Source: Symbiotaphrina buchneri
Lineage: Eukaryota; Ascomycota; Symbiotaphrinales; Symbiotaphrinaceae
Length of the DNA stretch: 64,000 bases
Reading direction: 5' to 3'
Assembly (NCBI GenBank): GCA_001599915.1
Contig: BCIG01000002.1
Span: 868,001 to 932,000, forward strand
A program made the translations under genes and the position numbers. Of the stretch, positions 53,739-61,186 are shown in pieces (position 1 is the stretch's first letter; the number at the start of each line of letters is the position of its first letter). The notes under the pieces are model-generated. The model was not told where the DNA came from and ran no database searches. It saw nothing but the letters and a program-made list of their open reading frames with translations.

Positions 53739-55770
53739 ATGGCAGACGAATCTCAACAGCCACTTTCGTTGCAAGCTCGCATTGCTGCATTAAATCTGAG
53801 TCAAGTCGGCCATTCACGTACATCCTCGGGATCATCGCAGGCGCAGGTCCCGCCTCGCCCACGGCCAATCTCGACAGCAGATCGGCCTTCTCTTGACCAT
53901 CGACGTCAATCCGCCAACAACCCTCCTATCTCAACTGCAGTGACAATTGGCAACGAGCCAATCGGCGTGCGGAACGATGGCCTTCTTCCGCCCTCATCCA
54001 CGCAAGCCTTAGGTCGTGTCGCATCCGCATCTTCGAAACCAGTGTTACCACCGAGATTGCCACCTCGTAGACCGTCGAGCAATGTGGCGCCTGCTCTGCC
54101 TCCCCGGCGGCCATCCGAAATCGCGACTAGCAGGAGAGAGTCGTTTGAATCGACCTCATCTGCCATCTCTAGCGTATCTGGCAGGTCGGTACAGTCTGCC
54201 AATACAGCTCTGACTGCGGGCTCTCGTTCTTCTTCAAGGGAGGCTACCTACAAGATCAAGGCTCCGGTCTATGATCCTGCGTCATTGCCTCCTTTACCAC
54301 CCAAACGGACAGAACAGGTGAAGACCCAGCCCCTTGTGGCACAGAAGCAGAGAGCCCCTCCTGTCGCGCCTCGGCCGCAGACTGAGACTTCTACTCCAAC
54401 AACACCCACCTATCCGCGTTTACCAGCATGTCGTGCGCAGTCCATTGACTCCACCCCTGGGACACTCAGGGCCAAAAGCCAGCCCGCGCCTCTGCCGAAA
54501 CCAAAACATTCCGCCCTCTCTTTTGCCTTGAACAAATCGACTGAGACGCCACCTCCCGTACCATCTACCATCTGTTAAGCCTACAGAGGGCACAGCATCA
54601 GAGACTCCTCCACCCATACCCCTGAGCTCTCGCCCGAACCTCTTGCACCAACAAGCCGATCCATACGGACAACAAACCTCCTGCCTCAGGTGTCGAGACT
54701 TCTCTGCTCCCGACAAACACGCCCTGCTTTTCCCCAGATCTTCCCTTCCCTCGCAAAATGCTCTTGCCCATCTATCACACTCCCTTACTTCACCCTTTCC
54801 CTCCCCCACCGACAAAGCACGAGCTATCTTCGCTTGGCTCCATCACAACATCGCCTACGACACCGAGGCTTTCTTCTCCAATAATGTTCGTCCTGCAACA
54901 CCATCATCCACCCTCACCTCGGGGTTGGCTGTCTGCGAAGGTTACGCGGGTTTATTTGCGTCGCTCGCCACCCTCGCTGGTCTCGAATGCATTGTAATTG
55001 GTGGCCACGGCAAGGGCTTTGGCTTTGCACCATTAGCCCCAAACTCACCCATTCCACCGTTCAGCGGCAACCACGCGTGGAACGCGATCAGACTTGCCGA
55101 CTCCGGTGAACCTGATCTTGGCGGCTGGAAATTGATCGACTCCTGTTGGGGCGCCGGTGCTGTGCAGGGAGCCGGCCAGCCATACCTCCCGCGTTTCGCC
55201 CCCTCCTTCTTCACCATGTCCAACACTGAGTTCGGCCTGCGCCACTTCCCCACCGATCCTTCGCAATTCTTCTTACCACACGGCACACCGGCGCCAACCT
55301 GGGCGGAGTACATCATCGGCGACCCTCTAGGGGACCCACCGCAAATGTTCGGTTCTCCCAACGACGACCACGGCATCGACGAGCGCTCCTTCGAGCCCGC
55401 CCACAAAGCCATCAACGTCTCGCGCCGGCACCCCGGTGAGACGATCCGCTTCTCCTTCGGGCTGCGCTGTCCGCACTATGACCCCACGGTGCACGGTCAC
55501 GGGCCGAGTTACCCCTTCATCCTGGCGCTGCATCCCGACGGAGGCGCGAAAGATGATGTCGTTGCCTTTGGGAGGGCGCCGGATGGACGCAGCTGGTTTC
55601 TCGATGTTCCCGTGGCGGACCTGGGCAGGAAGGGCCAGAGCGTCAGTGTCTGTGCGGTGAACAGTATTGGCGGCAGTGATGCGAGGGGCGTGAGCCAGGA
55701 GGAATGGAAGGCGAAGAAGGGACGGGTGGGTATGGGCTGGAGCGGGGTGTGTGGGTGGGAGTTGGTCTGA
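53739..55770 (+). CDS. Transglutaminase-like (Cyk3-type) protein, frame interrupted by a 7-bp duplication
   Basis: The N-terminal half (53739-54578) is Pro/Ser/Arg-rich with several PxxP segments (PPRLPPRRPS, PPLPPKRTE), typical SH3 ligands. The C-terminal half, in the next frame to 55770, holds a transglutaminase-like domain: ARAIFAWLHHNIAYD, Cys in LAVCEGYAGLFASLA, His in GNHAWNAI and Asp in WKLIDSCWGAG, so the Cys-His-Asp triad is present. The domain resembles that of cytokinesis protein Cyk3, where it works at the division site; no SH3 domain is present here. The two frames meet at 54559-54572, where TACCATC occurs twice in tandem. One copy fewer would give a continuous ETPPPVPSVKPTEG. 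It could be a real mutation or an assembly error. A 22-bp GT...AG stretch there would also restore frame but is too short for an intron. Confidence 0.8.
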
Positions 55771-56238: not shown

Positions 56239-58251
56239 TCACGAGGTGTCCATACCCTCGGTCTGTTCACCGTTAGGCCTCTTGTTGCGGACAAACTCGA
56301 CAAACTCATCCAGACAGCTCGGCCAAGCGCCCTCTTCGCTCCACCAGCTCATGCTCTCGTCATCGACGCTCATCCGGGCGAACTCTAGAGACTGGTCCCA
56401 CATGTCCTTGTTGACACTCTTCTTCCACTTCTCCTCCAGATACTCCACCCAGTATTCCAGCCAGGGGGTGGTCTCGGTGCTCCAGGCCCACGAGGGCGGC
56501 TTGAAGAGGATCTGCCAGTAGGCGATAGCAGTCTCGAGCGGAAGGGCTTTCTGGTTAGGCGTCAGGCTGCGTGCGATCTGGAAGGTGTGCTTGTAAACGC
56601 GCTTGAAGAGGACGCGGTCGTTTGGAATTGTCGTGCGGAGCGTGCCGACGTAGGATTTCTGTTTCTGAATCGTGTCCGCCCTGGCAGCAGGTTAGCCAAT
56701 TGCTGGACAAGATGATACCAAATCTCGGCCAGGGATGTCTGTACCCTAATGACCGCCACCCGCTGACGAAACCTTCCCTTGTGAACTCACCCATCGCAGG
56801 TGATTTCAGCGCCTCAAAGATTGCTAGAACAGTAACTTCTTCTGGATTCACGCCTATGTCTTCAAGATATTTCATCGCCCCATTGACTCCTATCGTATCT
56901 GGGTTCTCATTTGGTTCGTCTATGGTGGGTCCGGTCAGCTTGTGGTGCGTTTTTCGGAGACATCTGGAGACAAACCTCTATATTCGTCGAATAGTTTATT
57001 CAATGCAGTACTGGTACTTGACGATGCACCTGTTCCCTGAAAGTAGCTGTTCCAATGATATTGTCTGTCAGCCAGTGCTCTAATCCTGTTCTGTTTCTTT
57101 TCGTCACAAAACTCGTCAGCGGTTTGCGGGGATAGTCTAGCACGGAAGTAATCCCTGACGTAACCATTGTCGCCGTCGATGGGTATCCTCACAGCGGCCT
57201 TGACAAAGTAGCCCTCGGGAAGACTTCGCTGCCGGAGGGGACGTTCTCGAGGTCGGTGCCACAACCAATGCTGAATATAGAAAGGTTTGTAACTTTCCAT
57301 CAGTGCTAGTTCATTTCCACCCCAATCTTCTTCTTCTTCCGGTAACATTTTGGTGGGTTGCTCCTGCTGCGCCACGATTGCTCTGTCGTCCATAGAGACA
57401 GGGCCTTGAGAAGGGAAGCTTTGGTCTCTGTTTGACGCAGGGACAGATTGTCGATCGGTCGTATCTTGTAAACCAGGCGGGAGGTAAGCAGCGTCCTTCT
57501 TCGTAGCACTCCGTGGAGGCGGCCTTAAAATCGCTTCTCGCTCAGTCTTCGCATGTTGTTGGATGCATAATGTGGCAAGCCGTATGGTCAGCTTGGCAGC
57601 ATCCGAAACCGTCTCTTCCTCTCTCAAAACAGATGCCAATATGAGAAATTCTTCTTCGCTGCCTGATGGTTGATGGTGTGTCTCATGCTCAGCATAGCCC
57701 TTGCACAGTAGACCATCGTCCTTGTCGCTTGCCCTATTCTCTTCGTATGCCGTAGTATGGCAGAGGCGCCCCGCGGATTGTACCTGAATCTGCTCCATCC
57801 TTTCAGGCTGCCTGGCCTGCGAAGTATTCCCGTCCAACTTCAGTGTGACCAAGTACCCACCAATGCTGGACTATCCCCAAAGACCGCTCTGTAACAATGA
57901 AGAAATAGGAAAGCATAAGCACATACGCATCTACCGCTTGCTCGACGTTCCAACCATGTTGTCTAAGTTGCTAGGTGGTAGAGGTGTAGATTAGCCAGTC
58001 GCTCTCTGCTGCTACCAAATACAAGGGGGTTGGTCATGCGGGGCGAATGCTTCAGTGAATGTCGTCTGACAATTCAACAATAGCCATTCAACAATGGCTA
58101 TTCAAGAAGGTGCGTGACACGCTCAGACAGAAAGGGAAGTTGCGATCAGCGGGGGCTCGCTCACCTTAGCTGCAACACTATCCTTCGCCTGAGTGAATGT
58201 CACGAACTGCGCAATGGCGGCCCTCTGCGAAGGCGTGTATGAGGGCGGCAT
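56239..58251 (-). CDS. DCN1: Dcn1, cullin neddylation E3 (UBA-like plus PONY domain)
   Basis: Scaffold-type E3 promoting NEDD8 transfer from Ubc12 to cullins. Canonical exons (minus) are 58251-58165, 57970-57927, 57046-56976, 56919-56745 and 56680-56239, giving 272 residues, the usual family length. The UBA-like part is [18 protein letters not shown] joined to [19 protein letters not shown]. The PONY domain follows ([94 protein letters not shown]). Three introns show good branch sites (CTGAC, GCTGACC, GCTAAC). The second intron is 880 bp, about ten times its neighbours. Nearly all of it (57865-57047) is an open frame in phase with the next exon, reached from the same donor by a 61-bp intron, so a 545-residue product is also possible. 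Confidence 0.9.
57047..57865 (-). other. 273-codon open frame within the long DCN1 intron, in frame with the next exon
   Basis: Read on the DCN1 strand, this stretch has no stop for 273 codons and continues in phase into the YFQGTG exon. A CAG acceptor at 57866 would join it to the DCN1 exon 57970-57927, also in phase. The product is protein-like: acidic and amphipathic, with segments such as [40 protein letters not shown] and [21 protein letters not shown] recognise no family. It could be a lineage-specific insertion in Dcn1, an alternatively used exon, or a gene fragment captured in an intron. Confidence 0.6.
58079..58102. repeat. Hairpin in the first DCN1 intron
   Basis: AATAGCCATT and AATGGCTATT are exact 10-bp reverse complements with a CAAC loop. 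ATTCAACAAT is also directly repeated across it. It lies in the 194-bp first intron. Confidence 0.75.
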
Positions 58252-58864
58252 CTCAATCGACCCTGGCAAATGGCAAAGCACCGAGCAGAACACGAAGGGA
58301 GAAGGGAGCAAAACAACAAGTTATCACAGTAAGGCAGAACAGGGATGGGCGGTGATGTAGCACGCGATTACGGATGTCGCTTGAGGTTGGCGATAAAGCC
58401 GCCAACGCTAATCAAATTAGCCGAGAACGTGGGGCAGCCGGCACCGGTCACTTTGCTGCAACCTCTAAACGGTAAATGCATTCAAAGGGCATGATGGTCC
58501 ACCATCCATGAAACATCAAAGTAAAGAGATGTCAAGGTAGCAGAGCGTGGAAGAAAATGATACATAATTCGAGATGGAATATGTTGAACGGCAGCTGAAC
58601 AAGTTTGTCGCAGCAGTGATAGGCTACTGTACTGTACAATGCAGTGGCTTCAAATGCCCAACACCATAACTTGGTAGTGAGAATGCAAATGAGAATAACC
58701 TGGCCAACACCAAATGAAGAGAACACAGGTCATAAAACGCTAGACAATAATGCAACTGCAACAATCCCAGTAGGCATATCAGAACACAGATGAGGAGTCC
58801 CTGATGGAGATATCCTTTCCCCGGACACTCCGTCTCGGCTGTTGGCTATCAATGCTGTTGGCTA
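58252..58864. other. Spacer between DCN1 promoter and MVP1 3' end
   Basis: 610 bp upstream of DCN1 and downstream of MVP1, both on the minus strand. No gene was recognised. Confidence 0.45.
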
Positions 58865-61186
58865 TCAATCCCCTAGAGGCATTCCCTCAACCTCTTCGGC
58901 CAGCCCTCGCCAATTCTCAGCTTGGAGTTCGGCATACTTTGTCCGTTCTTGAGCCCAATCCTGGTGCAACCTGCTGACATGATACTGCGATGACTGGAAA
59001 TAGTTCAATTCGTCGCGGATACACTCTTTAATGAATACTCCTCGGGCATGTTGGTCGACAATGGATTGTTTGTCCTAGATTACCGTTCAGTACATAGAGA
59101 AATCACAGGCAAAGCGATTAGCATACCTTGATGATAGCTTCTTCAACCTTCTCAAGCTCGCCTGGCTTCAGCGTCCCCTCCGGTCTGGCTTTGAGGCCAG
59201 ATAGCTTGTTCTCATTGCTCGCTATGCGCCTCTCCAGTTGTGGGATGTTGTCTTTGGCATATCGATCTCGCCTATCGAACATATCGCGGACGCTGACCAG
59301 GCTATCACGTTGCCTTTTCAGATCTTCCATAACTCCGGCATCCCACGACCTGGCCTCATCCTCCAGCAGACTTTGACTGGTCGAGAGATGTTTCGCTGTG
59401 GACTTCAGACCTTCATTCAGGAGAGGCACATCGTTAGTATCTAGGCTATAAGTCGCCTCAGACGTTTCCGTCAACGACTGTAAGGCTAGAGAAAAGCGAA
59501 GATAGTCCGCTGCGATACCCTCATTGCGTTTGATCAGGCGGTCCATGAGCGCGCAAAGATTGACATAAAGGTCCGCTGATCGGCGGACCCCAGAACGAAC
59601 AGTATCGAACAGCTCCTCCAGAGACGGGGGCAATGAATCCTCGAGCGTCGGAGGCAAAGGCTTCCCGGTAAACTCTTCTTGGACAGAGATTGTTGCTTGC
59701 TTCCGCCACACAGATAGTTCCTAGTCTCCTATTAGTCGGAGCGCAAGGAGGGTTCAGGCTACCTACCGTAGGAACCGTTAAGAACATAACTACCAGCTGT
59801 TCCTGGCTAAGCACTGGATGCCGAACAAGAGCGTTAATGAACCTAACTAGTCCTCTTCGCCGTTTCTCTATGAAACCAACATCTGCTGACAGGTGTCTCC
59901 CATTGACTGCCGCACATTAGCACGATTCCTGATTGAGCGAACGAAGTCTCACTACCTGCTACCCTTTTAGGCGGAAGAAGAGGTAATGCGCGAAAAGGGT
60001 ATTTTTTGTGTAAGCAGTCCAATAACCATGTAAAGTCACTGTATCTTCTGACTACAGTGCTCCCCCTCCTAACACTCGAAACTTGATAATTTCGGTGCTG
60101 GAACATAAAAAGTCCCTCTTTCTCGGGCAACAGAGTCACATTCACTATCTCTTCCACACCACCCCCTGTTACCCTCCCTCCACCTATTGTTCTTCGACTA
60201 GTCTCTTGGGAGGCAGCAGGAGCACCGAAGCCTTCGTTACCCAACGCTGAAGGGTCACTTCCGGAGAAACCGTTGGCGACAGCAGTGTCGTAGGATCCCC
60301 ATCCAGTGCTACTTCCACCAGGTTGACTAGAAGGAGGATCTAGACTTGGCGTTGATGATGGCAGATCTGGCTGCGTGGTGTAGCTGGTGCTGGTTCGTTC
60401 TCGATCTTCAATATCAGCAGCGGTCGGTACGGCTCCATTTGTCTTGGGTAAAGGCCGGTCCGTCTTAGTATGGTCGTGTCCCTTATGGACGTCCGGGCTG
60501 GCCCATGGGTCGGCGTCATCCATGGCAGCGCCCGGTATGTTTCGAGCAGTAGGAGTCGTGGGCGGCGGAGCCTCGGGATGCTTGACTTTGTCGGCAGACT
60601 GCACCGAGAGCGATGGTAACGATGGTTTAGGAAGTCCTAGGATGATGACTTCAGTACCCATGGGAGAAGATCAACACCAACCACAGCCGGGATACTCACG
60701 TTTTCTCCTTTCATCCACGCCGTCCAGCGTGGCATCCTCTCCCTCCTGAGCCAGCCCAATAAGCGCTAATAGGACGTTGAATTCGTTGCGACCTAGCCCA
60801 CTCGCACTTTCTTGGCCTCCAACAACGACAATGTTCAATATCCGGCCCTGCTCCTCAGGGCTCAATCCGCTTGCCTCGAGCACTTGCTTGACACCGGTCA
60901 AGCCAATACCAGCACCAACCCTGCCACCTGAGGATACTAGGCTATCGTAGATGTCGATATATTCCGGCGGCACATCCGCGTCCCTCAAGAGTGTTTTCAC
61001 AAGCGTTGATCGGTCGCCTTTCTTTGCGGATGGCATTCCCCAGGGTGAATCCCCCGGTCCGTCGTCATCAGCAAAGAGCGAAGACTGGGAAGCTCCGGGT
61101 GTCGGGTCGTCATCGAAGAGTGACTGCCGAGAGCGAGTCGCATTTCCAATTGGTGAATCTTCTGGTGAATCACCAAATAAAGACAT
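58865..61186 (-). CDS. MVP1: Mvp1/SNX8-type sorting nexin (PX-BAR)
   Basis: Endosomal coat protein that tubulates membrane and recycles cargo. Exons (minus) are 61186-60700, 60636-59956, 59906-59767, 59720-59127 and 59074-58865, giving 703 residues, all in phase. Order of parts: an acidic N-terminus with repeated SLFxDD motifs; an EH-like helical domain (about 60-155, STLVKTLLRDADVPPEYIDI, GVKQVLEASGLSPEEQGRIL); and a disordered Pro/Ser/Thr region. The PX domain (about 320-435) has the PI3P-contact motif VVRRYSDFTWLL and LLPPKRVA. A BAR region follows (ELSVWRKQATISVQEEFTGK, long coiled coils to ELNYFQSSQYHVSRLHQDW). Introns are 46-63 bp. The gene is tandem with DCN1. Confidence 0.94.

Follow-up and report, generated by a model that had tools for sequence, protein, structure and literature searches.

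The closest described parallels to the intron considered here are the zipper stems of budding yeast, which aid splicing and have linkers of 42-85 nt (PMC12350175; PMC2536676; PMC12311795). By the criteria set out in the part of one of these reports drawn on here, a zipper stem has at least 6 bp at 70% helix confidence, and a bulge of 5 is allowed within one stem (PMC12350175). In addition, the splice sites and the branch site are little structured, and the stem raises splicing efficiency and is conserved or covarying (PMC12350175). A second parallel is provided by introns with terminal inverted repeats. In the passages of the source that concern them, the sister stwintrons of the Hypoxylaceae carry terminal inverted repeats of 45-55 nt, with about 73% identity in two examples and no flanking duplications, and inverted repeats or stable structures are described for the introner-like elements of the Capnodiales (PMC8469720). 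The searches of the literature returned nothing on Dcn1 with introns, alternative splicing or neddylation in filamentous fungi.

The locus lies in Symbiotaphrina buchneri, in a window of 64,000 nucleotides, which is the whole stretch of DNA that was analysed and to which all positions refer. The source genome comprises 23.4 Mb in 82 contigs, and the window carries DCN1 on its minus strand; no other PF03556 match was found in the genome. The rebuilt gene has five exons, and its introns 1 to 4 are modelled at 194, 880, 56 and 64 nt:

58165-58251, minus strand: DCN1 exon 1, with the ATG at 58251, encoding MPPSYTPSQ...DSVAAK; it shares the UBA_4 match with exon 2
57971-58164, minus strand: intron 1, 194 nt, GTGAGC...CTAATC...CTAG
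57927-57970, minus strand: DCN1 exon 2, ending in phase 2 (GC/)
57047-57926, minus strand: intron 2, 880 nt, GTATGT ... CTGAC ... ACAG; the end of the UBA (AVDA^YFQG) is continuous after its removal
57067-57071, minus strand: branch site CTGAC of intron 2, with the A at 57068, 21 nt from the end of the intron
56976-57046, minus strand: DCN1 exon 3, from the gene model
56920-56975, minus strand: intron 3, 56 nt
56745-56919, minus strand: DCN1 exon 4, from the gene model
56681-56744, minus strand: intron 4, 64 nt, with a GTACAG donor
56239-56680, minus strand: DCN1 exon 5, with the Cullin_binding (PONY) domain and the stop

This gene is an ordinary DCN1. Splicing from the donor at 57926 (GC/GTATGT) to the acceptor at 57047 yields a Dcn1 of 272 aa, in which PF14555 (UBA_4, UBA-like; 45.1 bits) and PF03556 (Cullin_binding; 114.5 bits) both score above their cut-off and follow the domain order of the Dcn1 family, with the UBA-like domain preceding the Cullin_binding (PONY) domain. 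Residues 7-259 of this product align with DCN1-like protein 1 (8or2 chain F, E 4.4e-39), and residues 7-258 align with 'Defective in cullin neddylation protein 1' (3bq3). The join created at acceptor 57047, ...EQAVDA^YFQG..., gives the longer UBA match of the two forms that were compared. The coordinates, phases and lengths in the first-pass annotation were right, both for the splice from 57926 to 57047 (272 aa) and for that from 57926 to 57866 (545 aa, with 819 nt equal to 273 codons), and the CTGAC branch that it placed about 20 nt upstream agrees with the branch A at 57068. Its description of intron 2 as ten times longer than the others fails for intron 1. The GTACAG donor of intron 4 (56739-56744) is unusual and has a negative score in the splice model, and the protein join at this intron, SLG^ADTIQK, is backed by the alignment with DCN1-like protein 1. 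The neighbour at 59118-59720 on the minus strand presumably resembles an Mvp1-type sorting nexin, and we take that at 54532-55770 on the plus strand to resemble a transglutaminase-like protein of the Cyk3 type. Elsewhere in the genome, a search for 5.8S rRNA gave no match among the 39 of 720 candidates that were scored; the rDNA repeat may be absent from the assembly or may have been missed by this search.

Within intron 2, a long frame without stops runs toward exon 3:

57047-57865, minus strand: stop-free stretch of 273 codons (819 nt), in phase with exon 3 and with the codon usage of real genes
57145-57798, minus strand: main part of the coding signal, 218 codons holding 17.4 of the 18.0 bits, in the loop between the predicted stem arms

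The full stop-free frame extends from 57870 to 56935 and has 311 codons. The other five frames of the stretch contain 7, 11, 12, 9 and 9 stops, which is also about 3.5%. Stops make up 3.46% of triplets when the six frames of 264 kb of the genome are counted together, real coding frames among them. At this frequency, 273 codons would be open by chance with a probability of 6.7e-5. The value proposed earlier, about 2 in a million, was thus too low when the genome's own stop frequency is used, and the corrected chance is still small. Codon usage gives the stronger evidence. It was scored independently of the absence of stops, with a model built from 40 long frames (27,053 codons) that excluded the target; open frames containing N were left out of the training, which used 40 frames, or 41 in the shadow-frame test. 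The stretch scores 17.99 bits. This value is reached by 41 of 79 real pieces of 272 codons, each scored with its own frame left out, and by none of 395 wrong-frame pieces, the best of which has 8.9 bits. The score is also 3.5 to 4.9 sd above nulls drawn from the composition of the stretch itself. Among 85 stop-free shadow frames of at least 120 codons, the best has 0.061 bits per codon, compared with 0.066 for the stretch, and 95% lie below 0.037; this is a weaker control, and shorter frames vary more.

The signal is not evenly distributed along the stretch. The 218-codon part starts with an ATG at 57798 in a good context (AAAGGATGG), while the 22 codons before it (1.3 bits) and the last 32 codons of the stretch (57144-57049; -0.7 bits, no coding signal) are too short to judge. 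The stretch lies on the right strand, is in phase with exon 3 and stays open through these last 32 codons. We estimate that strand, phase and openness would coincide for an unrelated fragment about once in 25 to 30 cases. Because it joins the codon usage of real genes to an open frame, the stretch is read as probable coding sequence, present or recent. The same statistics support the first-pass claim that it is, or recently was, coding, and an origin by chance appears unlikely. A free-standing nested gene was considered and rejected; the ATG at 57798 stands in a good context, but there is no in-frame stop before exon 3.

The collections searched gave no convincing relative of the stretch. In Pfam, no domain matched the open frame or the 218-codon loop part, and none matched the 9 pieces compared among 20 other open pieces of at least 35 codons that overlap intron 2. 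Solved structures (PDB) contained no convincing relative, the only candidate being 3ism chain C at E 0.12, which is taken as chance. Neither a second copy nor a parent gene was found in the organism's own genome, at the level of DNA or protein. Six short peptide patterns, which recognise close relatives only, were run in one scan of prokaryote genomes (17 pattern matches, 0 confirmed) and one scan of viral contigs (1 pattern match, unconfirmed). Rfam gave no match up to E 1 over 56900-58400. An AlphaFold prediction of 274 residues as a single sequence was uninformative, with a mean pLDDT of 34.9.

The two ends of intron 2 are complementary to each other, and they are predicted to pair in the RNA:

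57863-57926, minus strand: predicted left stem arm, with the core at 57864-57888, an outer helix at 57889-57897 and weaker pairs toward the donor
57063-57143, minus strand: predicted right stem arm, with the core at 57118-57142, an outer helix at 57101-57109 and weaker pairs to 57063

The core was found by a repeat search as an inverted repeat of 25 nt with 84% identity (57118-57142 and 57864-57888) that bounds the coding-like part, and in a gapped alignment the inverted similarity reaches further out, to about 57919 and 57087. A duplex of -63.3 kcal/mol is predicted between the first 80 nt of the intron and its last 110 nt, compared with a mean of -40.4 (sd 5.1) for dinucleotide shuffles of the intron ends (z -4.5), none of which was as strong in 2000 trials. 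Pairing of this strength occurs in 6 of 1000 random 880-nt pieces of the genome. When the whole intron is folded, the core pairs at 57879-57872 have probabilities of 0.84-1.00 and the outer helix (57897-57889 with 57101-57109, 9 bp) has probabilities of 0.90-0.99, both among the 60 of 73 pairs listed. The stem is kept when flanking exon is added, with 49 pairs that start at 57922-57075 and leave out the donor and the branch site. In the isolated intron, the donor at 57926 pairs with 57063 or 57071 at 0.34-0.35 and the branch A at 57068 pairs with 57921 at 0.32, weak pairs that would have to open for zipper function.

Other comparisons count against the stem. The ungapped score of the inverted repeat is equalled by 11 of 393 random 880-bp pieces of the genome with a mismatch penalty of -1 and by 20 of 393 with -2, these being the pieces that remained of 400 drawn after those containing N or overlapping the target were dropped, though only 1 of 300 mononucleotide shuffles matches the 25-nt repeat. 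Moreover, the left end of the intron also pairs with another intron segment, at -55.7. The stem could therefore be partly fortuitous.

The geometry of the predicted stem resembles that described in yeast. The outer helix leaves linkers of 29 nt (donor to 57897) and 32 nt (57101 to the branch A at 57068), and their sum of 61 nt falls within the yeast range. The core stem alone, from which an 8-nt bulge separates the outer helix, leaves 38 + 49 = 87 nt, just outside the range given in the part of the source that defines it (PMC12350175). The outer helix also exceeds the length and confidence asked of a yeast helix in that part of the source, with the qualification that its values are thermodynamic probabilities and not the chemical-probing bootstrap used there (PMC12350175). 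An intron of 880 nt would be expected to be a burden, and the complementarity of its ends suggests how it could still be spliced.

Searches of the genome for further copies of either arm gave only self matches, and no flanking or target-site duplication is visible at the core arms, which have CAG before and GAC after. Because of these two results, a transposon or a multiplying introner is unsupported. A DNA transposon with terminal inverted repeats (TIR) is likewise disfavoured, since the core arms are not flanked by a target-site duplication, the genome searches gave no extra copies and Pfam gave no domain in the stretch. A direct repeat is present between exon 2 (57947-57964) and the end of intron 2 (57049-57066), with 15 of 18 nt identical and RQHGWN corresponding to RQYHWN. 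It was considered as a flanking duplication and is probably due to chance, since exon 2 encodes a conserved part of Dcn1 and the score of the match is only 12.

Besides 57047, two upstream acceptors bear on whether the stretch could be included in an mRNA:

57866-57868, minus strand: upstream acceptor CAG, giving a 61-nt intron; weak (rank 22 of 28) and inside the left stem arm
57812-57814, minus strand: alternative in-phase acceptor CCAG, giving a 115-nt intron; score 11.5, rank 8 of 28

All ranks are rough, as the splice-site model was trained on 259 automatically picked introns, some of which are certainly false. The acceptor at 57047, with its CTGAC branch, has 13.8 bits and ranks third among the 28 scored acceptors; those at 57086 and 57091, in the right stem arm, are slightly above it at 14.2 and 13.9 bits. 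The acceptor at 57086 is in phase with exon 3, and its use would add 13 residues to Dcn1. That at 57866 has 7.7 bits, is without a CTNAY branch site at the normal distance and is preceded by AGs at 57889 and 57871. For the acceptor at 57812, the branch is CTGAA, and a GCAG lies 5 nt upstream. Because the early acceptors are poor and the acceptor and branch at 57047 are good, removal of the entire 880-nt intron 2 is expected to give the 272-aa Dcn1 as the main product.

Splicing from 57926 to 57866 would produce a protein of 545 aa, the distance of 819 nt between the two acceptors being exactly 273 codons. In this form, UBA_4 scores 33.8 bits, down from 45.1, and the match stops at position 35 of the 43 in the profile, whereas that of the 272-aa form reaches position 40. 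The insert, at VDA^YF, would stand inside the end of the UBA-like domain and not between domains. The first-pass annotation had proposed a 61-nt intron of ordinary size followed by a possible new domain that would separate the UBA-like part from the PONY part. The size is indeed ordinary (median 60 nt and 95th percentile 104.5 among 56 stringently selected introns, found by a search that extended to about 110 nt), and the acceptor is a poor one. The alternative exon and the captured gene fragment that it also suggested are both still plausible. The new-domain reading is weakened because the insert falls inside the UBA-like end and because acceptor 57866 is weak and within the predicted stem.

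Two further ways of including the stretch were examined and rejected. A retained in-frame intron, or exitron, conflicts with a length of 880 nt, which is not a multiple of three, and with a read-through that reaches the TGA at 57805-57803. A cassette exon with its own donor would depend on the in-phase sites GTACTT at 57856 or GTTACC at 57346, the latter weak, which are unconvincing among the 12 best-scored GT sites. When exon 2 is read through its donor, the frame continues for 40 further codons, and its TGA lies four bases before the ATG at 57798. A retained intron 2 would thus contain a stop-start arrangement at 57798-57805.

Based on the current evidence, the preferred reading is that zipper-assisted splicing yields the 272-aa Dcn1 as the main product, and that the stretch in the loop contributes at most to a minor in-phase isoform. 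We assign this reading a probability of about 0.45. According to this model, the ends of intron 2 would pair in the RNA into a long zipper stem. With the donor and the CTGAC branch site then separated by about 60 nt of unpaired RNA, the spliceosome would meet an intron of ordinary effective length. The loop of about 720 nt, carrying putative protein-coding sequence in phase with exon 3, would then be discarded. Within this reading, a minor isoform that includes the stretch is more likely than not, and it might be formed in two ways. When the stem is unformed, the donor at 57926 could be joined to 57866 or, better, to 57812. Alternatively, translation might start at the intronic ATG at 57798 and read on into exon 3, giving an insert-PONY protein that involves no early acceptor. 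The intact frame, its strand and phase, the ATG at 57798 and the absence of a parent gene from the genome searches argue for use of the stretch; the weak early acceptors, the lack of a stop of its own and the absence of relatives from the collections searched argue against it. From the predicted fold and the frame, we infer that the stem may aid splicing and gate the acceptors, and that an insert-bearing isoform may exist.

A more elaborate possibility is that the stem zips the donor at 57926 to the branch of 57047 and hides 57866, in which case folding would pick the Dcn1 form. Such a gated switch seems improbable. If it is true, a second form of Dcn1 would exist in which about 250-270 residues lacking known relatives interrupt or replace the UBA-like domain, and opening of the stem by heat, a helicase or a bound protein would alter cullin neddylation.

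Several other explanations have to be weighed against zipper-assisted splicing with a minor isoform. Intron 2 may have captured a gene fragment, or retained the relic of a small TIR mobile element, that is always spliced out and has no product, with an insertion recent enough that the codon pattern has not decayed. The good splice sites of the full intron would be explained in this way, as would an inverted repeat that encloses the coding-signal part, and the 38 nt upstream of the core arms, joined to the 71 nt downstream of them, would make up a 109-nt intron of the ordinary kind. This origin is the main rival and deserves serious consideration, though it is less likely than the preferred reading. 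The genome searches found no parent copy by DNA or protein and no other copy of an arm, the core arms show no sign of a target-site duplication, and luck would be needed for the strand, the phase and the openness into exon 3. A related proposal treats intron 2 as a degenerate introner-like element, with symmetrical ends and multiplying as a unit, that has taken extra DNA into its loop. While its arm of 25 nt with 84% identity, beyond which weaker similarity continues outward, recalls the inverted repeats of stwintrons as presented in the relevant part of the source (PMC8469720), a second copy of either end was not found in the genome. The several near-identical introns by which introners are recognised were likewise not seen, as the genome searches gave self matches only, and there is little to recommend this origin.

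The remaining explanations concern the stretch itself. Constitutive production of a 545-aa Dcn1 with a new insert of 273 residues would account for the codon usage and for a 61-nt intron of the usual size. It is very unlikely in view of the weak acceptor at 57866 and the shortened UBA match, and it gives no evident reason for a strong branch and acceptor at 57047 inside a constitutive exon. Conversely, the intron could be long, non-coding and open by accident. Long open shadows of real genes do exist, the longest of the 85 having 320 codons and the best approaching the stretch in bits per codon. However, both the probability of such openness and a codon score that leaves stops uncounted, lying well above the own-composition nulls and above all 395 wrong-frame pieces, make an accident highly improbable.

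What appears to be new here is the place of a coding-like stretch, as the loop of a stem that is predicted to span the intron. Should the stretch be in use, a new coding module would have been born in an intron of a conserved housekeeping gene, and the intron-spanning stem would protect the old product while a new one is tried out. The entry of new in-frame exons into conserved fungal genes would then become a testable question. Fungal introns are mostly short. If the stretch is unused, the locus would provide an example of a fungal intron that grew to 880 nt and is plausibly still spliceable.

Compared with known systems, the 272-aa product has the same UBA-like and PONY/Cullin_binding domains as Dcn1 and the DCN1-like proteins, and the gene differs in the long in-phase, coding-like stretch in intron 2 at VDA^YF. 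As in alternative 3' splice-site choice or an exonised intron, one donor faces in-phase acceptors 819 or 765 nt apart; in contrast, the early acceptors are weak in DCN1, and the choice itself is predicted. What intron 2 may share with the introner-like elements and the internally symmetrical stwintrons of filamentous fungi, as the relevant part of the source describes them, is a pair of terminal inverted repeats within a spliceosomal intron that no duplication flanks (PMC8469720). However, intron 2 is single-copy in the searches made and has 880 nt, whereas the two examples taken from that source have 93 or 207 nt (PMC8469720). The likeness to the zipper-stem introns of Saccharomyces, such as that of RPS17B, lies in the place of the stem, from just after the 5' splice site to just before the branch site, and in a long loop. 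The DCN1 stem differs in being a computational prediction, in its 8-nt bulge and in belonging to another fungus. Finally, the sections on yeast zipper introns drawn on here mention no open frame in the loop, whereas the loop of DCN1 intron 2 contains one that is coding-like.
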